Assembly: GCA_001871235.1 (NCBI GenBank)
Contig: MNUV01000010.1
Coordinates: 1-14,821, forward strand
DNA from: Candidatus Falkowbacteria bacterium CG1_02_41_21
GTDB lineage: Bacteria > Patescibacteriota > Patescibacteriia > Patescibacteriales > UBA12465
Reading direction: 5' to 3'
Length of the DNA: 14,821 nucleotides
Shown here: positions 594 through 14,558 of the stretch, piece by piece
Numbering within the stretch: position 1 is the stretch's first letter
Layout of the letters: each line of letters opens with the position of its first letter
Program-made: the position numbers and the translations under genes
The notes under the pieces: model-generated
Told to the model about the DNA's origin: nothing
Seen by the model: only the letters and a program-made list of their open reading frames with translations
The model's database searches: none

Positions 594-2672
594 TTACTGC
601 GCCGCTTGGCCTGGCTTGATCTGAGAATCCAGATAAGCTTGGAAGTATTGAGCGCTCTCAATGTCTTTCTTTTCTGAAAAATAGTTTATCGCCCCAGTCA
701 CTAAATCTCCCGTCCCCAACAAACTGATACTATCCAGTTTGGCGCAAGTTCGCGCCGATTCATAGGCCTGGTTATAATCTTTAAAGAAAAAATAAGCCCG
801 GGCTAAACTGCAGTAAGCATCGGGGGAATCCGATCGGAGTTTAATGGCTTTTTTTAAGGCGTTAATTGCTTCATCTTTCTCGCCCCGCGTTAAATAAATA
901 TCCGATTTAACGGAATAAAGCGGAAATCTCTCCGGACTGGCGAGAATGGCGGTATCAATTGCGGCCACGGCATCACCGGAATATTCGTTAAACTTATCCA
1001 TGTCTTTGTAATTAAGGCGAGCAGCGACATCGGAAATTTTAGCCAATTGAGTATGGAGTAAACTATCAGTCGGATTATAAGCGGCATTCTGACGCGCCAG
1101 CTCGACGGCATAAGCCGCCACTTCCTGGGCGTCTTTAGTCGATAAAGACATTAACGCTTGGGGGTGACTGGAAATTAAGTTAACCAAAGTTCCTCGACTG
1201 TCACGATTATATCCGACTTCTTTGGCCAAGGTCTGCTTATAAATCGCCACTCCCTCCATTAATTGACCTTTAGCGACAGATTGATAGCCATCAATCGTTC
1301 CGGCGAGCATCTGGAAGCCGCGAATATTGAAACGAACCACAAAAATTAGAGCCAAGATGATTAGGACTACCCATAAAGCCAATTCTTTCTCATCTGATAG
1401 GGCTGATTTCTTGGCGCTGACGACATCAATCTCATTTTGGTGATAATTATAATAAATAAAACCCAAAAGGCCGAACAAAGAAACATAAGTTACCAGCGAA
1501 TCAAACACCGCCAAATTTTGGACGAAATAAGCCACAATCAAGCCGGAGAGAACGGCCAGTTGCCAAGAATTAATCTTCTTTTGCCGGAATGATTTAAATA
1601 AATAATAAAAGGCGGCGACAAAAATAAAGAGATAGGTCAGGAGACCGAGCGAGCCGGTAGTGGAAGCGATTTCCACAATATTATTATGCGCCCGATCAAA
1701 ATAAGTTTCATTCGGACTAAAATCATAAAACTTGGTGGTAAAGTATTTATCAAAAATGGCCGCATAATTGCCATGGCCGACGCCCAAGATCGGATGATTA
1801 TGAAAATCCAGATAAGCCGCGCGCCAAGAAAGCAACCGAGTATTAAAAGTCGCATTGGTGTTAGAGAAAGCGCGCAACATTCCACCCAACTTGGTATTAT
1901 CAAATATTGGATTAGACCGGAAAGCAAAAAGCAAAACTAAAACGATCACCAATAAGCCCATGGCCGCAGCCCCGATTATTTTTATCTTCTTGCTCTTCTG
2001 TAAAAAGAAAAAGATAATACCCATTACCGCGAGCCCCGCGCCAAAGCCGGCTTGAGAGCCGGAAATATCCGCCTTGACGAAGCCGACTAAAATCAGAAAA
2101 GCGGCGAAGATATAGATACTTCTCTGCCACCAGTCTTTACAGGAAAAAATCCGCCACAGAGCAAACCAAAAATTGAAAATCATTAATCCGCCCACATAAG
2201 CCGCATTACCAATAGTGGAAGCGGGATAGACCTTAATCAAACCATAAATAACAATGATGACCGAGGTGACGATGGAAACATCCAATAATCGTTCCCAATC
2301 GCTTTTCTGGCGCATGACGGTAATCAAAATCAAATAGAACAACAAGAAGTGGAGCAAATGAAATAAGCCCAGCATTCTTTCGGCATTTCCCCAAAAACTT
2401 AAATTAAAATCAACCCCAAAAATAGCGGATAGTCCCACGGCCAAGAAATAGGCCAAGATTCCCCCGGTCAAATAATTCTTCTGGGGACGATATTCCGGAT
2501 AAGTGACAATTAACAACACCCAAACCACCGCCAAAACTTCCATTAAAATATTAAAGGAAATCTGCTTAGAAGTAATGAAAGGAAACAAAAGAGAAGGAAA
2601 AATTAATAAAAAAGTCACAAAAGAGCTATAAAGACCATATTTCAAAATGGCCAGATAAGTTTTTGGCTGCAT
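594..2672 (-). CDS. O-antigen ligase/polymerase-like (Wzy_C) membrane protein with C-terminal TPRs
   Basis: A 692-residue protein. The first ~430 residues are mostly hydrophobic, with about ten to twelve membrane segments. The Wzy/WaaL signature is visible near residues 280-330: RLLSWRAAYLDF, then HPILGVGHGNY (about 292-302), then the RAHNNIVEIASTTG segment. This is the periplasm-facing loop expected of PF04932-type ligases and polymerases. After a last membrane segment (about 435-455) comes a soluble helical tail with TPR-like repeats, clearest at about 604-648 (NALKKAIKLR...AYCSLARAYFF). The family transfers or polymerises lipid-linked glycans outside the cytoplasmic membrane; some members glycosylate pilins or other proteins. 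It is divergently transcribed from the sugar-transferase operon, with 45 bp between them. ATG at 2672 is the natural start. Ligase versus polymerase cannot be told from sequence alone. Confidence 0.85.
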   Translation of the reverse strand: MQPKTYLAILKYGLYSSFVTFLLIFPSLLFPFITSKQISFNILMEVLAVVWVLLIVTYPEYRPQKNYLTGGILAYFLAVGLSAIFGVDFNLSFWGNAERMLGLFHLLHFLLFYLILITVMRQKSDWERLLDVSIVTSVIIVIYGLIKVYPASTIGNAAYVGGLMIFNFWFALWRIFSCKDWWQRSIYIFAAFLILVGFVKADISGSQAGFGAGLAVMGIIFFFLQKSKKIKIIGAAAMGLLVIVLVLLFAFRSNPIFDNTKLGGMLRAFSNTNATFNTRLLSWRAAYLDFHNHPILGVGHGNYAAIFDKYFTTKFYDFSPNETYFDRAHNNIVEIASTTGSLGLLTYLFIFVAAFYYLFKSFRQKKINSWQLAVLSGLIVAYFVQNLAVFDSLVTYVSLFGLLGFIYYNYHQNEIDVVSAKKSALSDEKELALWVVLIILALIFVVRFNIRGFQMLAGTIDGYQSVAKGQLMEGVAIYKQTLAKEVGYNRDSRGTLVNLISSHPQALMSLSTKDAQEVAAYAVELARQNAAYNPTDSLLHTQLAKISDVAARLNYKDMDKFNEYSGDAVAAIDTAILASPERFPLYSVKSDIYLTRGEKDEAINALKKAIKLRSDSPDAYCSLARAYFFFKDYNQAYESARTCAKLDSISLLGTGDLVTGAINYFSEKKDIESAQYFQAYLDSQIKPGQAAQ

Positions 2673-2681
2673 AATTTTAGC

Positions 2682-2709
2682 TTGATTTTAAGTTTTAAGT
2701 TGATATAAT
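2682..2709 (+). promoter_or_regulatory. Sigma-70-type promoter for the sugar transferase-gmd-fcl operon, probably leaderless
   Basis: A -35 box TTGATT (2682-2687) and a perfect -10 box TATAAT (2704-2709) are separated by 16 bp. The ATG of the downstream gene is at 2718, only 8 nt after the -10 box. Transcription normally starts about 7 nt past the -10, so it would begin at or just before the A of ATG. That leaves no room for a ribosome binding site. Confidence 0.7.
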
Positions 2710-2717
2710 GATATTAT

Positions 2718-4091
2718 ATGATAAAGTCCAAATTAAAACAAATTATTCTGCTCTTGGGAGATATTGCCATTTTCTACTTAGCCCTGTATTTAGCCCTATA
2801 TTTACGCTACTGGGACAAACCTCATAGTGAACTTTGGGAGCAAAACAGCGCCGCTTTTACTTGGGTTTTTTTAGTTTGGCTCCTGGTTTTCTACATCGGC
2901 AACCTGTACGACCTCAAAAATTTCGTCCACAAAGGCCGGCTGGTGGAAAAATATCTCCAAAGCTTAGCCATAGCCCTAGTCCTTTCCATCATCTTCTTTT
3001 ATCTTTTCCCTTATAATAATATTTCTCCCAAGACTAATCTGGTGATATTCGCCGGCGTTTTTTCCGGATTATTTCTAGCTTGGCGCTTCTTTTTTTCTTA
3101 TCTCCTCAAGAATCGTTTGCCCAAGAATAATTTAGGCGTCATCGGTTATCACCCTCATTTGGCGGAATTGATTAAAGAATTTAAATCTAATCCGCATTTA
3201 GGTTATGATATCAAATTTGTAATTTTAAACGAGGGCGAGACAATTGATCCCAGCATCAGAGAATTAGTGGATATTTTTGATGAAAATGACGGGTTGGAAG
3301 AATTGAGTTCTAAATATAAAATTACCAATATTATTTTGGCTAAAGACGTCAACAGCTCTCCCGAGCTCAAACGTCGCCTGTTTAATTGTCTGCCCCTGGG
3401 TATCAGCTATACTACCCTCTCCAATTTTTATGAAAAAATTACCGACCGCGTCCCATTGGAAATAATCGGCCAATCTTGGTTTTTGGAAAATCTAGATTTG
3501 GCTGACAAGAAAATATTTGAATTTATTAAGAGAAGTTTTGATTTGATTTTAGCTATCATCTTTTTGTTGGTGACTCTTCCCTTTTGGCCTTTTATTCTCT
3601 TAGCGATAAAACTGAGTAGCGCCGGTCCGGTTTTCTTTTCCCAATATCGCATGGGCCAAAACAATATTCCTTTCAAGATGTATAAATTCCGCACCATGAG
3701 AACCGCCAATAATAATTACGCGCTGACCGTTCAGAACGACAAACGCATTACCGGAGTCGGAAAAATTATGCGTCAGACCAGACTGGACGAAATCCCGCAA
3801 CTGATTAATATTATTAAGGGCCAAATGAGCTTTATCGGACCGCGACCTGAAAGACCGGAATTTATCGCCGAACTTAAAGAAAACGTGCCCTTCTTTGATA
3901 TTCGCACTTTAGTGAAACCCGGCATCAGCGGTTGGGATCAGATTTCGGGGGAATATCATTCCGCCTCCGTCGCCGACACCATGAAAAAACTGCAATACGA
4001 TTTATTCTATATCAAAAATCGGTCATTATATTTGGATATTACTATTATTTTAAAAACCATTAAAACTATCATTGCCCATCAAGGGAGATAA
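2718..4091 (+). CDS. Polyprenyl-phosphate sugar-1-phosphate transferase (exopolysaccharide initiating enzyme)
   Basis: A 457-residue protein of the WbaP/WcaJ-type polyprenyl glycosylphosphotransferase family, at about the usual length. The N-terminal ~130 residues hold four or five membrane segments. A Rossmann-like central domain (about 135-250) follows. The C-terminal bacterial sugar transferase domain (PF02397) starts at about 265 with KRSFDLILAIIFLL, the re-entrant helix. It carries KFRTM, the catalytic Asp-Glu pair at 357-358 in TRLDEIPQ, and SFIGPRPERPEF. The enzyme moves a sugar-1-phosphate from a nucleotide sugar to undecaprenyl phosphate at the inner membrane, the first step of repeat-unit assembly. 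The sugar is unknown; glucose, galactose and N-acetylated diamino sugars are all used in the family. It is first in its operon, with gmd starting 5 nt after its stop. Confidence 0.93.
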   Translation: MIKSKLKQIILLLGDIAIFYLALYLALYLRYWDKPHSELWEQNSAAFTWVFLVWLLVFYIGNLYDLKNFVHKGRLVEKYLQSLAIALVLSIIFFYLFPYNNISPKTNLVIFAGVFSGLFLAWRFFFSYLLKNRLPKNNLGVIGYHPHLAELIKEFKSNPHLGYDIKFVILNEGETIDPSIRELVDIFDENDGLEELSSKYKITNIILAKDVNSSPELKRRLFNCLPLGISYTTLSNFYEKITDRVPLEIIGQSWFLENLDLADKKIFEFIKRSFDLILAIIFLLVTLPFWPFILLAIKLSSAGPVFFSQYRMGQNNIPFKMYKFRTMRTANNNYALTVQNDKRITGVGKIMRQTRLDEIPQLINIIKGQMSFIGPRPERPEFIAELKENVPFFDIRTLVKPGISGWDQISGEYHSASVADTMKKLQYDLFYIKNRSLYLDITIILKTIKTIIAHQGR

Positions 4092-4096
4092 AAACT

Positions 4097-6163
4097 ATGA
4101 AAAAAGCATTAATTACCGGCATTACCGGTCAAGACGGATCATACTTAGCCGAACTATTACTGGAAAAAGACTATGAAGTTCATGGCATTATCCGCCGGTC
4201 GTCATCATTCAACACCGGCCGAATTAACCATCTTTATCAAGACCCTCATAATCCAAAAACAACTTTCTTCTTGCATTTTGGCGACGTGACCGATTCCAGC
4301 AATATCTCCCGCTTACTCGAAAAAATTCAACCGGATGAAATCTATAACCTCGCCGCTCAAAGCCATGTCCGAGTCAGTTTTGATATTCCGGAATATACCG
4401 CCGAAACTGCCGGGCTAGGCGCGCTCCGGATTCTGGACGCTATCCGAGAAACTAAAATTAAAACCAAATTCTACCAAGCCTCTTCTTCGGAAATGTTCGG
4501 TAAAGTACAAGAGAATCCGCAGAATGAAAACACGCCTTTTTATCCTCGCTCCCCTTATGGCGTCGCTAAATTATTCGGGCATTGGATTACCAAAAACTAC
4601 CGCGAGAGTTATGACCTCTTCGCCGTTTCTGGCATTTTATTCAATCACGAATGCTTAACTGCCCAAACACCAATTATTATTAAAAAAAATGACTTAATAG
4701 ATATTGTCTCTATTGAAGAATTAGTACCCCATCGTGAAAATCATAAACATGGCGTAAAATATACTACTCAAAATAAAAATCCATTAGAAATTTGGGACGG
4801 AAAAGATTGGACAAAAATAAAAACAATGACGGCTACTTGGAACAAAGCTGGGACAAAAACAGACAAAAAAGTTAAACGAGTTATTTGTCGGGGTGGTTAT
4901 TATGAAGCGACCAACGATCATCTATCTTTTTTAGAAAATAACCAGGAAATAAAAACTGGCGATTTAAAGAAAGAGAATCGCTTATTACTAAAACAACTAC
5001 CACCCTTAACTAAAAAAACGCTGACCAGTTTGGCTGAAGCAGAATTTTTAGGAATGATAGTCGCTGACGGATATGTTAACGCCGATGGCCACGGTAGATT
5101 TATAAATAACGACAGAAAATTATTAGGTCGAGCGGAAGAGCTGTGGCTGAAAATAGCCGGCGGCTCCAGCCGATATTCCAAACATCCCAATGGTTTTAAT
5201 AAATCGAAAGACGTTTTATCCATTGAATTATCCGGAAACTATGATTATTTAAGATTCGTTCAAAAAGAGATATATAATGAAAAATTATATAAAAAAATAC
5301 CGAAACGCCTATTAAACGCCGACAAAGATGTAGTCTTGGCTTTTTTAAGAGGATATAACAGTTGCGACGGACTTAAAGCCGGCAGACAAAAAACTGAATT
5401 TAAAAGCTTTACTACCAATTCCTCAGTTCTGGCCCAGGGTTTATGGTATTTAACGGAAAAAGTATTAGGATTAAGAATTACTATGCATCCAGAATTTAGA
5501 TCTGGAAAAACTTACTACCACCTAAATATTAATTCTGATAATAAAACCAGGAAGGGGAAACATTTGCAAAAAGAAATTTCGGAAATTAAAGCCATAAAAA
5601 ATAATGAATACACTGGTTGGTTATTTGACCTAGAAACGGCGAGCGGCACTTTTTCGGCCGGCATCGGCCTTACTTGGATTCATAACTCTCCGCGTCGCGG
5701 TTCAACTTTTGTTACCAAGAAAATTACCGAAGCTCTGGTTAAAATAAAAAATGGCGCTCAAGATAAATTATATTTGGGAAACTTGGAAGCCCGACGTGAT
5801 TGGGGCTATGCCAAAGACTATGTCTATGGCATGTGGCTCATGCTCCAACAGGAGACTCCCGATGATTATGTTTTGGCAACCGGAGAAACTCATAGCGTCC
5901 GGGAGTTTGTGGAAACGGCGGCTAAACTATTAGGGATGGATATTGCTTGGGAGGGCGAAGGAATAAATGAGAAAGGTATTGATAAAAATACCGGCCAGAC
6001 TATTATTGAAATCGATCCCAAATATTTCCGGCCGGCTGAAGTGGAATTATTGTTAGGTGACCCGACTAAAGCTAAAACTAAATTGGGCTGGGAGCCGAAA
6101 GTAAAATTTGAGGAGTTGGTAAAAATAATGCTGGACGCCGAATTAGAAAAAGAAAAGAAGTAA
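4097..6163 (+). CDS. gmd: GDP-mannose 4,6-dehydratase with an in-frame intein
   Basis: The 688-codon frame is two pieces of Gmd (residues 1-185 and 531-688, together 343, a normal length) separated by an intein. The enzyme converts GDP-D-mannose to GDP-4-keto-6-deoxymannose. The N-extein shows the Rossmann NADP motif TGITGQDGSY (7-16), the RRSSSFNT region (33-40), the catalytic S/T-x-E (S130, E132 in QASSSEMFG), and YxxxK (Y154, K158 in SPYGVAKLF). The C-extein resumes with SPRRGSTFVTKKI, giving NHESPRRG after splicing, a highly conserved family motif. AAGGGAG at 4081-4087 is a good ribosome binding site 9 nt before the ATG. The enzyme should be inactive without splicing, because the break lies in the substrate-binding region. 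fcl follows immediately, which supports the role. Confidence 0.96.
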   Translation: MKKALITGITGQDGSYLAELLLEKDYEVHGIIRRSSSFNTGRINHLYQDPHNPKTTFFLHFGDVTDSSNISRLLEKIQPDEIYNLAAQSHVRVSFDIPEYTAETAGLGALRILDAIRETKIKTKFYQASSSEMFGKVQENPQNENTPFYPRSPYGVAKLFGHWITKNYRESYDLFAVSGILFNHECLTAQTPIIIKKNDLIDIVSIEELVPHRENHKHGVKYTTQNKNPLEIWDGKDWTKIKTMTATWNKAGTKTDKKVKRVICRGGYYEATNDHLSFLENNQEIKTGDLKKENRLLLKQLPPLTKKTLTSLAEAEFLGMIVADGYVNADGHGRFINNDRKLLGRAEELWLKIAGGSSRYSKHPNGFNKSKDVLSIELSGNYDYLRFVQKEIYNEKLYKKIPKRLLNADKDVVLAFLRGYNSCDGLKAGRQKTEFKSFTTNSSVLAQGLWYLTEKVLGLRITMHPEFRSGKTYYHLNINSDNKTRKGKHLQKEISEIKAIKNNEYTGWLFDLETASGTFSAGIGLTWIHNSPRRGSTFVTKKITEALVKIKNGAQDKLYLGNLEARRDWGYAKDYVYGMWLMLQQETPDDYVLATGETHSVREFVETAAKLLGMDIAWEGEGINEKGIDKNTGQTIIEIDPKYFRPAEVELLLGDPTKAKTKLGWEPKVKFEELVKIMLDAELEKEKK
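4652..5686 (+). mobile_element. Intein with LAGLIDADG homing endonuclease, inserted in gmd
   Basis: 345 residues (186-530 of the precursor). It starts with Cys186 in CLTAQTPIII, right after NHE, and ends with His529-Asn530 followed by Ser531, the nucleophiles expected of a class 1 intein. Block B is visible as EATNDHLSF (T272, H275). Block F is the LFDLETASGTFSAG stretch (509-522). The two dodecapeptides of a DOD endonuclease are FLGMIVADGY (317-326, D324) and FLRGYNSCDG (416-425, D424). All splicing and both metal-binding acidic positions are present, so it looks functional. Base composition differs from the host: 16 of 60 bases are G/C at 4681-4740 against 36 of 60 at 4381-4440 in the N-extein. 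This suggests recent arrival or relaxed codon use. Confidence 0.95.
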
Positions 6164-6174
6164 AATCAAAAAAT

Positions 6175-7116
6175 ATGATGAACCTCAATAGCAAAATCAC
6201 CGTTTTTGGCGGTAGCGGCCTAGTCGGCAGCGCCATGGTTAGAGGGCTGATTAAACAAGGCTATACGAACGTTGATGAGCCAAATAGTCAGACGGTTAAT
6301 CTCCTGGATAAAGGCCAGGTAGAAGAGTATTTCAAAACCAAACAACCGGAGTTTATCTTTATGATTGCCGGACTCGTCGGTGGTATTTATGGCAATATGA
6401 CTCGGCCCGCTGATTTTCTGTACAAAAATTCCATGATGATCTTGAATGTCATGGAAGCCATTAAGGACTTCAGCCCGAAAACTAAAATCCTTTATACCGG
6501 TTCCACCTGTATCTACCCCAAAGATAATCCCCAACCGATTAACGAAGATCGTTTTATGGCTGGCAAACTGGAAGAAACTAACAAGGGCTACGCCGTTGCC
6601 AAAGGTTTGGGCGTGGTTGCTTGTGAGTTGTATCGCAAACAATATAACATCAATGCTATTGCCGTTATGCCCACTAATATGTACGGCCCGAATGACACCT
6701 ATGACCTGCAAAACGGACACATGATTCCTTCTCTCATTCAAAAATTTGTAAACGCCAAAAAGGATGGCACCCCGCTCACCTTTTGGGGGACCGGCGCCCC
6801 AAGACGTGAAGCCTTATTTGTTGATGACACCGCTGAGGCCTGCATCTATTTAATGAATAACTATGACCAACCGGAGATTGTTAATATTGGTACCGGCTTT
6901 GATTATTCCATCAAAGAATTTATTGCCATCTTGGAAGAAGTGATGGACTACAAAGCCGATATTAGCTGGGATACCACCAAGCCGGACGGCACCATGGAAA
7001 AAAGAACTGACATTACCAGGCTTAAAAGCATCATGCCCAACTTCTCTCCTCGTTCTTTCGCTGAGGGCGTCAAAGAAACTTTGAAGGCTGATTTTGGGTG
7101 GGAGTTTGAGGATTAG
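6175..7116 (+). CDS. fcl: GDP-L-fucose synthase (GDP-4-keto-6-deoxymannose 3,5-epimerase/4-reductase)
   Basis: 313 residues, normal for the family. The N-terminal dinucleotide motif is FGGSGLVGSA (11-20). The catalytic residues fit a constant offset of three from E. coli Fcl: S110 and C112 in GSTCIYP, Y139 and K143 in GYAVAK, and H182 in NGHMIP. The epimerase pair Cys/His and the Ser-Tyr-Lys triad are therefore intact. The enzyme takes the Gmd product to GDP-L-fucose using NADPH, in the cytoplasm. It starts 11 nt after the gmd stop. ATG at 6175 or the adjacent ATG at 6178 are equally possible, and neither has a strong ribosome binding site. Related enzymes making GDP-colitose also exist, but the residues shown here are those of the fucose branch. 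Confidence 0.95.
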   Translation: MMNLNSKITVFGGSGLVGSAMVRGLIKQGYTNVDEPNSQTVNLLDKGQVEEYFKTKQPEFIFMIAGLVGGIYGNMTRPADFLYKNSMMILNVMEAIKDFSPKTKILYTGSTCIYPKDNPQPINEDRFMAGKLEETNKGYAVAKGLGVVACELYRKQYNINAIAVMPTNMYGPNDTYDLQNGHMIPSLIQKFVNAKKDGTPLTFWGTGAPRREALFVDDTAEACIYLMNNYDQPEIVNIGTGFDYSIKEFIAILEEVMDYKADISWDTTKPDGTMEKRTDITRLKSIMPNFSPRSFAEGVKETLKADFGWEFED

Positions 7117-7426: not shown

Positions 7427-8009
7427 TTAAGATTTGGCAAATTTTAGCAACGATTTAAAGTCTTCTTGATCAGCCTCTCTCACCGCCCTAATATACTCCA
7501 AACGGTTATTATCAATAGTCTTGACGCTTACTCCGCCCCAAGAAAATGATGGTTTCAGAAAAACCTTTTCCATAATAGCGTCGGCCATTACCATTAGAAA
7601 AAGGATGAATAGAAACCAAGCGATGTTTTAATCTGATGGCAATTTCTTCTTCTGGAAAAGTTTTATTTTCAATCCAATAGAAACAGTTATCCAGCAACTT
7701 TTTTAATTCGACTCCAATTACTGCCTTGTCAACACCGATGTTCTTGTTAGACTGACGAAATCGGCCGGCCCAACCCCAAACAGATCCAAACATTTGCCGA
7801 TGTAAATCTTTAACAAACTTTTCGGTGAGCAATCTATTGGCTGAAATATTTTGGTTCAATAACCACTCCATGGCTGTTTCAATATTCTGCTGTTCAAATT
7901 CATCTAATTCCTCCCGGGTTGAAATACTTTTTATTTTTAATTCTGCCTTTTCTTCTTCATCCAGGGGAGATTGTCCATCAAGATAATTGTAGTCCAAACT
8001 TAATCCCAT
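7427..8009 (-). pseudogene. Mobile mystery protein B (Fic/DOC-fold), frameshifted at the Fic motif
   Basis: The intact frame from 8009 runs 165 codons and stops at 7512, but family similarity ends after HPFSNGNGR (residues 135-143). In the next frame a good continuation begins MADAIMEKVFLKPSFSWGGV and runs on through NNRLEYIRAVREADQ to a TAA at 7427-7429. This is the normal C-terminus of the family, so the 3' end is a separate frame of the same gene. Joining the two with the usual four residues after GNGR gives about 200 residues, as expected for mobile mystery protein B. The upstream part (LHRQMFGSVWGWAGRFR) is typical of Fic-fold proteins. These modify target proteins by AMPylation or related chemistry; the substrate of this family is unknown. 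The second Arg of the HPFx(D/E/N)GNGRxxR motif is lost in the damage. The ATG overlaps the end of A. Confidence 0.87.
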
Positions 8010-8464
8010 AAATGTCTTGGTTGATTAGCGATGATTTCAGAGGCCCTATCTTTTATCGCCCTCTTAATTCTGGCAGATGAATTAGCCTGTTTTTCGAGTT
8101 GCATAGTCCTATTGGTCCGCGCCACAATATTTTCGGCGACATGGTAGGCTTGATTTTTGATTATCTTACTTAGGCTTTTCTCTGGGGCCGAAAAACCATA
8201 AACTAACTTTAAATTCAAAGCTTGAGCGACTTCTTTCAAATTTTTTAAACTAATTGAACCATTCTTTTCTCTCTGTTCTATCTCCTTAACACTCTGAGCT
8301 GTAATTCCCAATTTCCCTCCTAATTGGCTTAGAGACATTCCCAGGGCTGTTCTGGCAGAATGAACCCAACCGTCGGAAAGCCTTGTAATACTTTCCAGTT
8401 TATTAAAAGCCTTAATCTTTCGATCTAATTGTTCAATTTGTAAATTTTTATTAATATTTTTCAT
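8000..8464 (-). CDS. Mobile mystery protein A (XRE-family HTH regulator)
   Basis: 154 residues, the usual size. Residues 33-90 form a lambda-repressor-type helix-turn-helix domain (ARTALGMSLSQLGGKLGI, SVKEIEQRE, ISLKNLKEVAQALNLKLVYG). The C-terminal half is helical with NIVARTNRTMQLE and ends in HLWD, the hallmark ending of this family. The family is normally paired with the Fic-like B protein, as here. The B start lies inside the last codons (8007-8009 against a stop at 8000-8002), so the two are translationally coupled. The gene looks intact. Two palindromes at and just before its start codon suggest that it represses its own promoter. What the pair does in the cell is not established; a toxin-antitoxin-like role is often guessed from the Fic/XRE pairing. 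Confidence 0.9.
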   Translation of the reverse strand: MKNINKNLQIEQLDRKIKAFNKLESITRLSDGWVHSARTALGMSLSQLGGKLGITAQSVKEIEQREKNGSISLKNLKEVAQALNLKLVYGFSAPEKSLSKIIKNQAYHVAENIVARTNRTMQLEKQANSSARIKRAIKDRASEIIANQPRHLWD

Positions 8465-8744: not shown

Positions 8745-9512
8745 TTAAACCCTGGGTCTTGATAAAAATTGGCTGAATTTGCTTAATATTCTTCTAATGA
8801 TAAAAAAGCACGGAACCGGCAGATTATTAACCTTCCAAGCGCGACGCAATTCCTTCCAGCCCTTGATTCTCTGTTTTAAGCTGCTGCCACTCGCCCCGCC
8901 GGCTCTCATCTTAACGACAATCTCTGATAGGTATTTAACCTTGATCTTATTGATCTTTAATGACCTGAGAATAAATTCATAATCGGCGGCCAATGAGAAA
9001 GAAGTATCAAAAATCTTTTCGGACTTATTATACACTTCCCTTTTTACAAACAAAGTTGGATGAGGAATAATCCAACCGCCATTAATTTTACTTTCTTGAT
9101 ATTTCCCGCTCCGCCAATATCTGGTTTGTTTGTCAGTATTATCCTGATCCACATAAACCAAATCGCCGTAAACAGCATCAACATCCGGATTAGCCGCAAA
9201 AACATCATTGATCTTGGCTAAAACATTTTGATCATAATAGAAATCATCGGAATTTAAAATTCCGATAATATCGCCAGTCGTCAGCTTTATTCCCTTGTTC
9301 ATGGCGTCATAAATACCGGAATCTTTTTCGGAAACCAATCTGATGGGATATTTCCTTTGATATTCATTGACTATGGCTATCGTTCCATCCGTGGAAACAC
9401 CATCAATCACTAGATATTCCAGATCTTGGTGGGTTTGGCTAATAACACTATCAATCGTGTCAGAAATAGTTTTAGCGCTGTTATAGCTGGGGGTTATAAT
9501 GGAAATTTTCAT
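8745..9512 (-). CDS. Family 2 glycosyltransferase
   Basis: 255 residues of the GT-A fold. The start is canonical for GT2 (MKISIITPSYNSAKTI). Other signatures are VIDGVSTDGT (35-44), SEKDSGIYDAMNKGI (61-75), the metal-binding NSDD (87-90) and the acceptor-side LAADYEF (174-180), with HPTLFVKREVY before it. The SEKDxGIYDAMNKG block groups it with WcaE-like enzymes of colanic acid and related capsules. It would transfer one sugar from a nucleotide donor to the growing lipid-linked oligosaccharide at the cytoplasmic face of the membrane. The basic, partly hydrophobic C-terminus (PVPCFFIIRRILSKFSQFL) may anchor it. Donor and acceptor are unknown. It is the last gene of the - strand operon, starting 4 nt after the methyltransferase stop. 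Confidence 0.9.
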   Translation of the reverse strand: MKISIITPSYNSAKTISDTIDSVISQTHQDLEYLVIDGVSTDGTIAIVNEYQRKYPIRLVSEKDSGIYDAMNKGIKLTTGDIIGILNSDDFYYDQNVLAKINDVFAANPDVDAVYGDLVYVDQDNTDKQTRYWRSGKYQESKINGGWIIPHPTLFVKREVYNKSEKIFDTSFSLAADYEFILRSLKINKIKVKYLSEIVVKMRAGGASGSSLKQRIKGWKELRRAWKVNNLPVPCFFIIRRILSKFSQFLSRPRV

Positions 9513-9516
9513 AAAT

Positions 9517-10320
9517 CTATTTTAAAGCCTCAACAAATAAGGAATCCGGTTTTCGGGGATAATCTCCATCTTGAGCTTTATCCAAGGCATATTTATTCCA
9601 ATCCAAAATTCCGGACTCATTATAATTCATAATTTTAAAATCTCTGAAACCGACACTGGCCAATAAAATTTTTAAATCCAATTTATCATACATCCACCGG
9701 TGAGCTTCACCGGATTTTTGGGGATTGGCTTTTTTAACGAAACCGACAATAAATCTTTTTAATCTACTAAAGCGATCATCTCGCCGCAGAAAATTAATAA
9801 TTTTATCTTTTAAGCTAAAATTGGGAGATTGGCCGTCGGGAAAATTTAAATTTAATAAGGGCTTAAATTCTTCCCCATTTCTAAAAAGAATATAATCTTT
9901 ATTAAATTTTCCGCCTTTGATGGTCTCCAACATCTCCCCGCCGCTCTTTTGTCTGACAATTTGATCAAAAAGCTCTATTTTATTCCATTTATAATTTAAG
10001 ATCGCCGACTGGTCGTTAGAATTGAATCCTTTGGCCAAATTACTTAAATACTCCAGACAAATTTGCTCCAAATCAGGAATCACGACTCGGATGATTCCGC
10101 CCGGTTTTAAAACCCGAAAACAGTCAGCGATAAATTTTTCCGCCTCAAATTTATTAATATGCTCCAAAACATGAGAATGATAAACAACGTCAACAGAATC
10201 CGACGAAAACGGCAATTTATTTTTGATGTTGTGATATTTAACAAATTGAGAGCGATACAAATCTAAATTTATCCAATCCGGATGATAATTATGACCGCAA
10301 CCGATATTTAATAATTTCAT
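9517..10320 (-). CDS. Class I SAM-dependent methyltransferase (glycan cluster type)
   Basis: 267 residues. Motif I is LNIGCGHNY (4-12), followed by the acidic LDLYR, the motif around VVYHSHVLEHI (45-55), and FRVLKPGGIIRVVIPD (68-83). The C-terminal part ends with a helix and strand, AHRWMYDKLDLKILLASVGF, common in methyltransferases that sit in polysaccharide loci. It would methylate a sugar or, less likely, a small-molecule precursor, using S-adenosylmethionine in the cytoplasm. The target cannot be read from sequence. It starts 9 nt after the aminotransferase stop. Confidence 0.85.
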   Translation of the reverse strand: MKLLNIGCGHNYHPDWINLDLYRSQFVKYHNIKNKLPFSSDSVDVVYHSHVLEHINKFEAEKFIADCFRVLKPGGIIRVVIPDLEQICLEYLSNLAKGFNSNDQSAILNYKWNKIELFDQIVRQKSGGEMLETIKGGKFNKDYILFRNGEEFKPLLNLNFPDGQSPNFSLKDKIINFLRRDDRFSRLKRFIVGFVKKANPQKSGEAHRWMYDKLDLKILLASVGFRDFKIMNYNESGILDWNKYALDKAQDGDYPRKPDSLFVEALK

Positions 10321-10329
10321 AATTTTTGT

Positions 10330-11427
10330 TTACAATGATTTATAAAAATTCTTAATATTTTCACAAATATACTTTACTTCTCTCTTGGTCAAAAAAGGAT
10401 GAATCGGTAAAGATAAAATAACTTTAATCTTATCTTCTAAAACCGGCAAATAAGAATTATACTCTTTAAAGCACGGCTGTCTATGAACCGGAATGGGATA
10501 ATGAATTAAAGTGGCTATTCCCTTGGACTTTAAATATTCAATCAAACCATCGCGACTCTCCGCTTCAATTACAAAGAGATGGAAAACTGACTGAGAATTT
10601 TTTCTGGCGGCCGGTAATTTTATCTGTTTTACCTGGCGTAAATATTTGACGTAAGCAGCCGCTAACTTTTGCCTGGTCTTATTATTCCGATCCAAATACT
10701 CTAATTGAACCAGCAAAATAGCGGCCTGGATTTCATCCAAACGGCTATTAAGGCCGTAGACTTCATGCTCATAGCGATTCTTCTGGCCATAATTTCTCAG
10801 TTGTAATATTTTGTCATAAAGATATTTGTCATCAGTAGTGATTGCCCCGCCATCGCCGAAAGCCCCCAGATTCTTGGTAGGATAGAAACTAAAACAATTA
10901 ATAATACCGAATGATCCCACTTTCTTATTCTGATAAGTGGCGCCATGAGCCTGAGCGCAATCTTCAATTAAATGAATTTGGTGTTTCCGGCAAATGGCCA
11001 TGATCTTATCCAAATCAACACTTTGACCATAAAGATGGACCGGAATAATGGCTTTGGTATTACTATGAATCTTCTCTTCAATTTGACTGGCATCAATATG
11101 GAAATATTCATCAATATCCACAAAAACCGGTTTGGCCCCGACTGAAATGATGGCGAGGGCTGTCGCCGCAGCGGTATGGCTAGTAGTGATAACTTCATCG
11201 CCCGGACCGATATTAAGGGCTAATAGGGCTATTTGAAGGGCTTCCAGGCCGTTGGCCACCCCCACAGCGTATTTAGTGCCGATATAACCGGCGAACTTTT
11301 TTTCAAAATCAGCCACCTGAGTTCCTAAAATATACCAACCGGAATTAAGCACTCCCTTGATGGCTTTATCAAATTTCTGATGATGACTTTTATATTGCTT
11401 TTGAAAATCATTGAATTTGATTTCCAT
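10330..11427 (-). CDS. fdtB: DegT/DnrJ/EryC1/StrS-family sugar aminotransferase, FdtB-like
   Basis: 365 residues, normal length. PLP chemistry is supported by K185 in [15 protein letters not shown], by D156 and Q159 in [10 protein letters not shown], and by the substrate motif SGWYILG (29-35). The enzyme class puts an amino group on a 3-keto or 4-keto nucleotide sugar with glutamate as donor. The adjacent FdtA-type isomerase, one nucleotide upstream, points to a 3-amination: dTDP-3-keto-6-deoxyhexose to dTDP-3-amino-3,6-dideoxyhexose (Fucp3N or Quip3N type). The symbol is by pathway analogy; QdtB-like chemistry is also possible. Confidence 0.87.
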
Positions 11428-11428
11428 A

Positions 11429-11857
11429 TTATTTTTTATTTAAATATTTAATAAATTCATCATAATTTCTCAGATAATCGCTCTCTTGATAATAATCGTC
11501 GGCCAAAACTAGAATGACGCAATCGGCAGAAAATTTTTCCATGGTATGCCATAACTTCGGACCCAACCTAACGCCGTAATGAGGGTTGTCCATTAAAATC
11601 CGCTGCTTATTCTTCCCGTCGTCCAATTTTAAAACAAAGCTGCCGTTGATGCAAAAAATAATCTGCTCTAATTTTTTATGGGCGTGATGGCCCCGATGGG
11701 ATTTTTTATTGAATAAATTGTTAATAAAATAAAACCTTTTGATAACAAAAGGAACATTCCGATTGGATTCGCCGATGACCAAATTACCGTCGGGAAAATC
11801 ATTGAAAGATTGTAATTTAATCAGGCCCGAATTCTTAACCTTTATTTTTTTGTTCAT
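11429..11857 (-). CDS. fdtA: dTDP-6-deoxyhexose-3,4-ketoisomerase, FdtA/QdtA-like cupin
   Basis: A longer frame starts at 11965, but the real start is probably the ATG at 11855-11857. That gives 142 residues, the size of FdtA, and avoids most of the overlap with the upstream gene (23 nt remain). The cupin signature [11 protein letters not shown] holds the catalytic His pair (H57 and H59 in the corrected numbering, matching H49 and H51 of the Aneurinibacillus enzyme). It ends with [21 protein letters not shown], typical of the family. The enzyme moves the keto group from C4 to C3 of dTDP-4-keto-6-deoxyglucose. It feeds the neighbouring aminotransferase. RmlA and RmlB, needed to supply the substrate, are not in this window. 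Confidence 0.88.
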
Positions 11858-12851
11858 AAAATTTGTCTTTAAATAATTTACAAAATATGATAATTGATTT
11901 GATAATTCCGAACCGTGATAGCCGAGCCACCATTTTTTCTTTAAAAGAAACTTGTTTATAGCCAAAGTTAAAATCCGGACTAAATTTTTTGACTAATTCT
12001 ATATTGTTTTGTAAGGCCCGAAAATAGGGCTCACAGATAATCCGGCGGACGTTTTCGGAAAGGTCATAGCGGCGAGCCGGCAAGTACTTAGTCGGAGATA
12101 ATAAACAAAAGCTGTGGAAGTGATAAAAAATCAAGGGAAAAATTTCACCGGTATTTTTTTCTCGGCCGATAATTTTATTATTTTCCGAATAAAAATCATA
12201 TTGCTGGACGTTCCACGGCGCCACTCCGCCACCCAGATGCCTTAATTCGTAAACTCCCTGAAAGCGGGTCGGCCAATCGTCCAAATACTTCTGATCGCCC
12301 AAACGGCCTTTATCTAAATAATCAAAACACCAATCCAGACAGGCTAAACGCCACCAATCCAGCGCCGCCAAGCTATTTTTATTATTTTTAAAAATTATGA
12401 ATTGGACGCAGTATTTCCCGCTAACCGCCGCCTGGTCGTATTTTCTGGTATAGCGATGCGAGGTAATCATAACATCCTTATCGCCCAACTCAGCAATCAA
12501 AATTTTCGGGTCGTTGAAAAAATATAAATCAGCGTCCAAATAAATCAATTTATCCCAGCTTGAATTTTTCTGCAGCAGAAACCACATGAAGTTGGAAGCG
12601 CAAGTCCAAGAATATTCCGCCACATTTCTCTCGGCTTTGACTTCCAGTAACTCCGGGCTCTCAAACTCTTCTGAGGTCACCAATCTGACATGGGGCAAAT
12701 TCATTTGGCGTAAAAGTTCATAAGTCAAGCCGTCCAAGCATAAAATCCAAAGGTTAAAATCCTCGGTACAATTAGCTGCCAACGAATTATACATGGCCAA
12801 GCCTTTATAAAAATAATTGCGATCAAACAGGGTGCAGAAATTATAAGTCAT
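11835..12851 (-). CDS. Family 8-like glycosyltransferase (nucleotide-diphospho-sugar transferase fold)
   Basis: 338 residues. The metal-binding DxD is in KLIYLDADLYFFNDP (D106 and D108). Other conserved-looking blocks are GKYCVQFIIFKNN (145-157), the GDQKYLDDWPTRFQGV segment (195-210), and HLGGGVAPWNVQQYDF. This is the architecture of a family of uncharacterised retaining transferases often found in capsule and LPS clusters of many phyla. The sugar donor and the acceptor are not known. Its 3' end overlaps the corrected fdtA start by 23 nt, which suggests translational coupling. It starts 5 nt after the stop of the preceding glycosyltransferase. Confidence 0.8.
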   Translation of the reverse strand: MTYNFCTLFDRNYFYKGLAMYNSLAANCTEDFNLWILCLDGLTYELLRQMNLPHVRLVTSEEFESPELLEVKAERNVAEYSWTCASNFMWFLLQKNSSWDKLIYLDADLYFFNDPKILIAELGDKDVMITSHRYTRKYDQAAVSGKYCVQFIIFKNNKNSLAALDWWRLACLDWCFDYLDKGRLGDQKYLDDWPTRFQGVYELRHLGGGVAPWNVQQYDFYSENNKIIGREKNTGEIFPLIFYHFHSFCLLSPTKYLPARRYDLSENVRRIICEPYFRALQNNIELVKKFSPDFNFGYKQVSFKEKMVARLSRFGIIKSIIIFCKLFKDKFYEQKNKG

Positions 12852-12856
12852 AACTT

Positions 12857-13792
12857 TTAAACGTTTAATTTTTGCCTGATTTTTTTCCAGGCGCTCTTTG
12901 GATTTTTCAGATAACTTGAAAATTTCAATAAAAAATTGTTTCTGGTTCTAAAAAATTTCATGATGCTCTTTTTGGCTTCCAAATTTTCTTTGATTTCAAT
13001 CCGATGCATATTAATTTTTATATTCTCTACCTTGGCAGTTTTATTAAAAATATTGACGATGCCGCAATTGGCGCCGCTGCCGTCAAAACCGATATTGTAA
13101 ATCAAAGATTCTCCGGGATAAAGGGTTAATTTATTTTTTAAAAAGGCCGACCCGTACCACCGAACCGCCCAAGAACTGTTTTTGCCGGCGATTTGATCTT
13201 TGAGCAGCTGGGTGTAAGGATAGGCGCCGTTAAAATCAAACTCTTTGGTTAAATTTTTGGTTTCTAACTCCGCCAATATTTTCCGGCCGTCAGGTTCAAA
13301 TAAATCCCAACCTCTTTTCCAGGTGGCCCAACCTTGGCAATCAGCCCCTTTCAAAAAATATATTTCCGGCAATCGTTCTTTGACCGGATAGATATAACTA
13401 TGAATACTAATTACCTGGTTATCATTTTCATACAGATTCAACCCTTCATTAAGATATTTAAGAAAGTAACGGGAAGTGATAATGTCATCTTCTAAAACGA
13501 TAATTCGGCCATAGTGATTAATAGTTTCGGTGACACCGGCGATAATTGACTTTCCGAGGCCGTAATTCTGGGCTCTCTCTATAATTTTAACGCTTTTGAA
13601 GCCGTTAACCTCTTTTAAATATTGTCTGACTTCGGCCACTTGTTGCCGGCTCAAATCATTATCCTTCGGTCCATCGGAAAAAATTATTAAATCAGTTTCC
13701 GAAGCCAATTCATTCTTTTCAAGGGCCTCAATTGTCTTTTGGGTATGCCAGGGACGGTTATAGACAAATAAAGCTACTGGGGCTAGTTTCAT
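12857..13792 (-). CDS. GT-A-fold glycosyltransferase (GNT-I/GT2-related)
   Basis: The frame opens at 13828, but ATG at 13790-13792 gives 311 residues, lies 4 nt after the preceding stop, and begins the conserved MKLAPVALFVYNRP. I therefore prefer it. The metal site is RIIVLEDDIITSRYF (EDD at 101-103 from this start). The typical family block GWATWKRGWDLF and the late GFDGSGANCG loop are also present. The enzyme is likely to act on the nascent glycan at the cytoplasmic face of the membrane. Substrates are unknown. The tail is basic and lysine-rich (KNPKSAWKKIRQKLNV), which could help membrane association. Confidence 0.85.
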   Translation of the reverse strand: MKLAPVALFVYNRPWHTQKTIEALEKNELASETDLIIFSDGPKDNDLSRQQVAEVRQYLKEVNGFKSVKIIERAQNYGLGKSIIAGVTETINHYGRIIVLEDDIITSRYFLKYLNEGLNLYENDNQVISIHSYIYPVKERLPEIYFLKGADCQGWATWKRGWDLFEPDGRKILAELETKNLTKEFDFNGAYPYTQLLKDQIAGKNSSWAVRWYGSAFLKNKLTLYPGESLIYNIGFDGSGANCGIVNIFNKTAKVENIKINMHRIEIKENLEAKKSIMKFFRTRNNFLLKFSSYLKNPKSAWKKIRQKLNV

Positions 13793-13796
13793 AAAA

Positions 13797-14558
13797 TTAT
13801 TTTTTAGCTTTGATAAAAGCGATAGCATACCAGCGGTCTTTAATCATGTCAGTTTTTGCGGCTTCAGCCTCATCGACGGTTAGCCATAAATTAAATTTCT
13901 TGGAATATTTCTTGTATTCTATTTCCACGCTAGAAAAATCTCTTAATAATTCATTAATTCTTCCCTTATTATAAAGCTTATTTATCGGCAAAACGTCCTT
14001 AATACCATAAGGCACGGAGATCAAGGCGGCTCCGCCAGATTTCAAGATTCTTTTTATCTCCTTCATGGCCTTGATGTCCCCCGTGGGATCGTCGTCGCTG
14101 CCGTAACGGCCGGAAACTCCGATGTGTTCCAAAGTGGAGATGCAAGTAACCATATCAAAAAAATTATCCGGATATTCGGTCTTTCGGATGTCGCCGACGG
14201 AAAACTTTATTCTATCATTTCCGATGGGCTTGGCATTTAAATCTATGCTGTTGATTTCCACCGTTTTCGGCAAAAGATCATAAAGCATATTACTGGCCGT
14301 TGAGCCGACGTCCAGCAGTCGTCCTTGGGTAATATCAATGTTTTCCAGCATCCAGGGATATTCTAAATAGCGATCGGAATTATCCGGCTGCCGCTCTATC
14401 AACTTGGCCAAGAGGACGCAATCCTTGAACTTTTCGCATTTACTTTTGCTTAAATAAAAAATAAAAATATTCAACGTCTTGATTATCTTTCCAAAAACCA
14501 CGATGCCGAGGGCCGTGGCCTGCCTCAATAGATTTAAAAATTTTACCATAATATTCAT
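13797..14558 (-). CDS. Class I SAM-dependent methyltransferase
   Basis: 253 residues. A hydrophobic N-terminal stretch at about 12-36 precedes the catalytic domain. SAM-binding motif I is LLDVGSTASNML (81-92), with D106 in INSIDL as the ribose contact and VGDIRK (121-126) as motif II. A later part reads MVTCISTLEHIG, then a GSDDDPTGDIKAMKEI stretch and a VPYG strand. It is in the same operon as another methyltransferase fragment upstream, spaced 5 nt after its stop. Two starts are possible: ATG at 14558, or ATG at 14549 (Met4). The target may be a glycan hydroxyl or a lipid-linked precursor; there is no way to choose from sequence. Confidence 0.83.
   Translation of the reverse strand: MNIMVKFLNLLRQATALGIVVFGKIIKTLNIFIFYLSKSKCEKFKDCVLLAKLIERQPDNSDRYLEYPWMLENIDITQGRLLDVGSTASNMLYDLLPKTVEINSIDLNAKPIGNDRIKFSVGDIRKTEYPDNFFDMVTCISTLEHIGVSGRYGSDDDPTGDIKAMKEIKRILKSGGAALISVPYGIKDVLPINKLYNKGRINELLRDFSSVEIEYKKYSKKFNLWLTVDEAEAAKTDMIKDRWYAIAFIKAKK

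Follow-up and report, generated by a model that had tools for sequence, protein, structure and literature searches.

An intein with a LAGLIDADG endonuclease at the NHE/SPRRG site of GDP-mannose 4,6-dehydratase in a Falkowbacteria genome

What is a stretch of 345 residues doing in the middle of GDP-mannose 4,6-dehydratase (Gmd)? The question is raised by a contig of Candidatus Falkowbacteria bacterium CG1_02_41_21 (MNUV01000010.1; its 14,821 nucleotides are referred to here as the window), in which the gmd gene is interrupted in frame at positions 4652 to 5686. A first-pass annotation had interpreted the insert as an intein with a LAGLIDADG endonuclease, lying between the NHE and SPRRG motifs of Gmd. 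In this study, we conclude that the insert at this NHE/SPRRG site is almost certainly a class 1 cis-splicing intein of full length, in which a LAGLIDADG homing endonuclease with two motifs is nested. The conclusion is supported by the sequence, the predicted fold, the splicing residues, the presence of empty (intein-free) alleles, and a conflict between trees in the family, from which we infer splicing, cutting and homing.

The intein and its host protein

The gmd precursor is encoded by a single open reading frame (ORF) of 688 codons (4097 to 6163, plus strand, as are all parts of the precursor), uninterrupted by stops. It was identified as Gmd by TIGR01472 (570.5 bits, above the cut-off of 415), PF16363 (499.4 bits), and the solved Gmd structures 7kf3 (E = 9.8e-136) and 2z1m (E = 4.9e-135). 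Gmd is matched on either side of the insert, the alignment breaking at residue 185 and restarting at 529. Profile and structure matches, together with a gapless junction alignment, delimit the N-extein (residues 1-185, ending in FNHE; 4097 to 4651), which is followed by the intein (345 residues, from Cys1 to His-Asn345) and the C-extein, starting with Ser+1 of SPRRG (5687 to 6163, stop included). The first-pass annotation gave the intein coordinates exactly, 4652 being the first base of codon 186 (Cys) and 5686 the last base of codon 530 (Asn). With residues 186-530 deleted, as that annotation had proposed, the resulting 343-residue protein was aligned with ten of the 16 empty relatives; the junction is gap-free in all ten alignments, and the full-length identities are 61-74%. 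Judged from sequence, the host protein is complete without the in-frame insert, as in class 1 inteins.

All splicing residues named by the first-pass annotation (C186, T272, H275, H529, N530, and S531) are present, as are the acidic residues of both endonuclease motifs. C186, T272/H275, H529-N530, and S531 match the class 1 residue set, i.e., Cys/Ser at position 1, the block B His, the terminal His-Asn, and Cys/Ser/Thr at +1. The N-terminal splicing (Hint) part, supported by Hint-only structure matches, covers intein residues ~1-101 (4652 to 4954), its boundary being taken from the strands of the predicted model, and includes block B, TNDH (4910 to 4921). The homing endonuclease domain (intein residues ~127-294; 5030 to 5533, approximate boundary) was assigned from profile, predicted model and structure matches. 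LAGLIDADG_3 (PF14528) scores 46.4 bits on the insert against a cut-off of 22.5, with two distinct half-domain matches that both exceed this cut-off and each contain an acidic residue, the first at 5042 to 5257 (23.5 bits; D324, 5066-5068) and the second at 5327 to 5542 (28.7 bits; D424, 5366-5368). The C-terminal splicing part, recognized from the strands of the predicted model, ends in WIHN (5582 to 5686). In this model, a Hint fold is built from the N- and C-terminal parts of the insert. Full-length fold matches were obtained to endonuclease-bearing inteins and also to Hint-only inteins; these matches settle the intein identity, and chance is excluded.

A recurrent insertion site

The homologue search was limited to proteins whose length was 0.55-1.75 times that of the query; 7,995 candidates were scored and the best 120 were listed. 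An insert at the NHE/SPRRG site was found in 116 of the best 120 homologues, a count that is not to be read as a frequency and that includes P0001, which is the window protein or a 99% copy of it. The other four (P0054, P0060, P0094, and P0109) showed no insert and resemble a doubled gmd. Apart from P0026, the bearer of a second intein, the 115 remaining homologues were aligned with the window, giving 116 rows; metagenome-derived proteins among them possibly include chimeras. All 116 rows have NHE before the insert and S-P after it. Position 1 of the intein is Cys in 107 rows, Thr in 6, and Ser in 3; block B has His in 116 and Thr in 110; and the intein ends with Asn in 116, preceded by His in 112. 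The first acidic position is Asp in 82 rows, Glu in 31, and another residue in 3, and the second is Asp in 109. Inteins recur in gmd at the NHE/SPRRG site, and the window case is not unprecedented. The idea of gmd as a near-unique host was rejected in view of these homologues and of the genome and viral loci described below.

Glu at position -1, from which the first-pass annotation had suspected slow or conditional splicing, occurs in 116/116 intein-bearing Gmds and in 16/16 empty relatives. Because it is, like Ser+1, a residue of Gmd itself, it gives no evidence of such behavior and was rejected as a sign of it.

In the lineage of the window, an intein in gmd is rare. It was found in 1 of the 379 genomes of the phylum draw, namely the window's own, and in 2 of the 380 of the class draw; the second (L151) has an intein that is 36% identical to that of the window, ends in Ala-Asn and likewise occupies the NHE site. 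The earlier view of gmd as an uncommon host holds within the phylum and the class and fails in general, gmd being a recurrent host with one published case. For a kin set of 60 genomes, including the window's own, figures were taken from the matches listed. At least 16 other genomes have a gmd-like match with an identity of ≥54%, and the intein is absent from all 16. The site is uninterrupted in every one of them, which bears out the proposed survey of intein-free alleles: NHE is followed by Ser, ten having SPRRG and six SERRG or SSRRG, and 37-47 of 60 bases are identical to the joined window site. The window genome is a draft assembly (61 contigs, 85.6% complete), in which the only other gmd-like match among those listed is a 29% relative, and no second gmd was seen among them. 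No 16S rRNA gene was found in this genome; the sizes of 0.6-1.4 Mb listed for the genomes of its relatives suggest a bacterium of the candidate phyla radiation. With so many gmd alleles at hand, both empty and intein-bearing, homing becomes testable in uncultured bacteria.

Genome and viral contigs were searched with C-terminal motif patterns of the window intein family, which favor that family. In the genome contigs, 36 of the 95 pattern matches were confirmed as encoding a relative of the window intein, with representatives in Cyanobacteriota, Chloroflexota, Myxococcota, Thermodesulfobacteriota, Planctomycetota, and one Sericytochromatia metagenome-assembled genome (MAG), as well as in archaeal MAGs (Woesearchaeota and Thermoplasmata). 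In the viral contigs (IMG/VR), 13 of the 43 matches were confirmed. The NHE site of gmd holds the intein in 36/36 genome loci and 12/13 viral loci, the 13th (L150) being a 3' part only; L141 and L142 were placed from BLAST coordinates and L145 from its ends. One viral contig (L139; 117,459 bases), whose gmd intein is 48% identical to that of the window, also has nearby matches to a holin (39 bits), an endolysin (112 bits) and, weakly, a tail fibre (24.5 bits), as well as a transposase, and a neighbor in L146 matches a phage DNA transfer protein (498 bits). At least these two, the IMG/VR contigs checked by neighbor genes, look like phage DNA bearing an intein-containing gmd. Such viral contigs offer a concrete route for spread.

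It is possible, and we propose it only tentatively, that gmd, a surface-sugar gene, is a hot spot for a lineage of homing inteins spread by phages across bacterial phyla and into archaea, with a Thr1 branch possibly starting splicing by a Thr nucleophile. If true, the window Cys1 copy would be one station in this traffic. Counting against phage spread, the window intein had no tblastn match at E 1e-5 in 50,697 phage records; 72,556 plasmid records likewise gave none at this threshold.

Thr, not Cys or Ser, occupies position 1 in P0045, P0064, P0082, P0084, P0091, and P0107 and in the viral loci L144-L149. These inteins retain the block B His, His-Asn, and Ser+1 (11 were aligned; L145 was judged from its ends alone), and all 11 aligned have an extra stretch of ~40 residues, helix-turn-helix-like by eye, ahead of the last block. 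Residue 1 of class 1 inteins is described as Cys or Ser (PMC7664689). The Thr1 inteins also keep Asp in the GW-F-DL block; from the D107C design of gp41-1 in the title of 6riz, we infer that class 3 inteins have Cys at this position. Additional insertion sites in Gmd were seen in P0026 (Q88|S89 in window numbering, AAQ/SHV) and L123 (S130|S131, SSSE block), both placed by the C-terminal junction only, and near ~130 (approximate position) in L138 and L145; they are always occupied alongside the NHE site. In an Anaerolineae locus (L136:3569-5275), the gmd intein has just 246 residues, the endonuclease region being partly gone, and is likely a degenerating copy.

Mobility and alternative explanations

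Trees were built by a quick method from 52 of the 120 listed homologues and 44 of the 49 loci, with 10 of the 16 empty alleles added to the extein tree. They left out P0001, the four homologues with no insert, the bearers of a second intein (P0026, L123, L138, and L145), L147, L150, most proteins below P0044, and the empty alleles L004, L007, L012, L015, L016, and L017, which were missed by the motif filter. The intein tree conflicts with the extein tree, as predicted by homing. In a 35-row subset, the extein data rejected the intein clades P0009+P0029+P0030 (approximately unbiased test, p = 5.3e-8) and P0028+P0032+P0068+P0081 (p = 4.8e-8). P0008 and P0011 are 98.3% identical in their inteins and 77.0% in their exteins. 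Moreover, the extein tree intermixes empty with intein-bearing alleles; P0024, for example, adjoins an allele that lacks the intein (support 98). For eight pairs of relatives picked by hand, the ratio of nonsynonymous to synonymous change was 0.03-0.34 in the endonuclease region versus 0.00-0.10 in the extein, with synonymous change near-saturated in some; these values are as expected for a domain still under selection.

Several observations weigh against an intein here or against its mobility. TIGR01445 (intein_Nterm) scores 15.9 bits on the window intein (E = 0.02), under its cut-off of 24.5, and PF14890 has no match on the window sequence; in the profile search suggested by the first-pass annotation, LAGLIDADG_3 reached its cut-off and these two, which help to detect inteins and do not define them, did not. 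They are matched by 5/8 (TIGR01445, best E = 3.1e-4) and 2/8 (PF14890, best E = 6.2e-5) of the aligned family members, and detection by intein profiles alone would have failed for the window intein. In the 35-row subset, the clade P0008+P0011 is not rejected by the extein data (p = 0.52). The window and P0002, its nearest relative after P0001, are less alike in the intein (70.4%) than in the extein (76.4%), and in distant rows the exteins are usually more similar than the inteins, which is what faster intein change would give; recent transfer into the window genome is therefore unsupported. The pair P0034 and L129 also runs counter to mobility (intein 62.3%, extein 86.0%). Finally, no DNA relative close enough to measure selection on the window copy was found, so the putative activity of its endonuclease is read from the intact motifs.

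The splicing chemistry is established for class 1 inteins. In the window precursor, Cys1 would attack the Glu185 carbonyl (N-S shift), the N-extein would be passed to Ser+1, and cyclisation of Asn345, aided by the penultimate His, would release the 343-residue Gmd and a free 345-residue intein. At the DNA level, the endonuclease would cleave the site in gmd alleles that lack the intein, and repair of the break would copy the intein in. Directly downstream of gmd lies a GDP-L-fucose synthase-like gene (6175 to 7116, plus strand; best NCBIfam NF047922, 309.5 bits, below the cut-off of 500). GDP-fucose synthesis by these two genes probably depends on splicing: the conserved NHESPRRG block is divided by the insert, and the matches listed for the genome include no other gmd.

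For the same reasons, splicing would gate Gmd activity, and if splicing were conditional, the intein could switch fucose synthesis on and off post-translationally; this idea refines the intein reading and does not exclude it. We consider such a switch improbable, since Glu -1 does not vary across the family and belongs to Gmd itself, and since sporadic presence suits a selfish element better than a retained switch. A dead insertion, with splicing lost and gmd non-functional in the window genome, is less likely still: another gmd could be missing from the incomplete draft, but the ORF is intact, every splicing residue is present, and both exteins are full-length and well conserved. The number of contigs in the draft might also suggest an assembly chimera, with the intein wrongly joined to gmd, to which we give next to no weight, as the frame is open over both junctions, the same exact residue pair occurs in the other 115 rows, and the database cluster P0001, 99% identical to the precursor across all 688 residues, has 13 member sequences.

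Surroundings and known systems

The intein-bearing gmd is flanked by a surface-polysaccharide locus (594 to 4091 and 8745 to 14558) that encodes an O-antigen ligase with tetratricopeptide repeats, a sugar transferase, a DegT aminotransferase, FdtA, glycosyltransferases, and methyltransferases. On the minus strand (7512 to 8464), a helix-turn-helix (HTH) gene overlaps a Fic-domain gene, which has an HPFSNGNGR motif and then ends early, possibly by a frameshift; we take the two to resemble an HTH/Fic mobile pair. An Rfam scan of the window gave no match at the gathering score.

Inteins in gmd are already known: a full-length ('type II') intein has been reported in GDP-D-mannose dehydratase (gmd) of Thermosynechococcus (PMC9403480), in one sentence of a section that contains neither the insertion site nor an intein tree, and earlier reports are possible. 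The window is a further case, in a lineage where such inteins are rare. Two Thermosynechococcus loci (L121 and L124) carry theirs at the same NHE/SPRRG site; they differ in being cyanobacterial and are 41% and 37% identical to the window intein. The archaeal V-ATPase inteins TliVMA and PhoVMA (7qss, 7qsu, and 7qst) have the same overall fold, a Hint domain with a two-motif LAGLIDADG endonuclease, but lie in another host protein and site, with 22-25% identity to the window intein over the structural alignment. TliVMA, with 429 residues including an accessory domain, cuts its own homing site, and the catalytic acids are lost in PhoVMA (PMC8966425), whereas the window intein keeps its acids. Intein homing endonuclease II (2cw7; PI-PkoII) differs in its 537 residues and its DNA polymerase host (the latter according to PMC8966425). 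LAGLIDADG enzymes have also been described from rRNA insertions of the candidate phyla radiation (PMC11270868). In the parts of two reviews covered by a term search (PMC5874633 and PMC7765530), the emphasis is on replication proteins and active-site insertion, with no passage found on a Gmd intein. At gmd, inteins repeatedly colonize one conserved block of a surface-polysaccharide gene, rather than of a replication gene.
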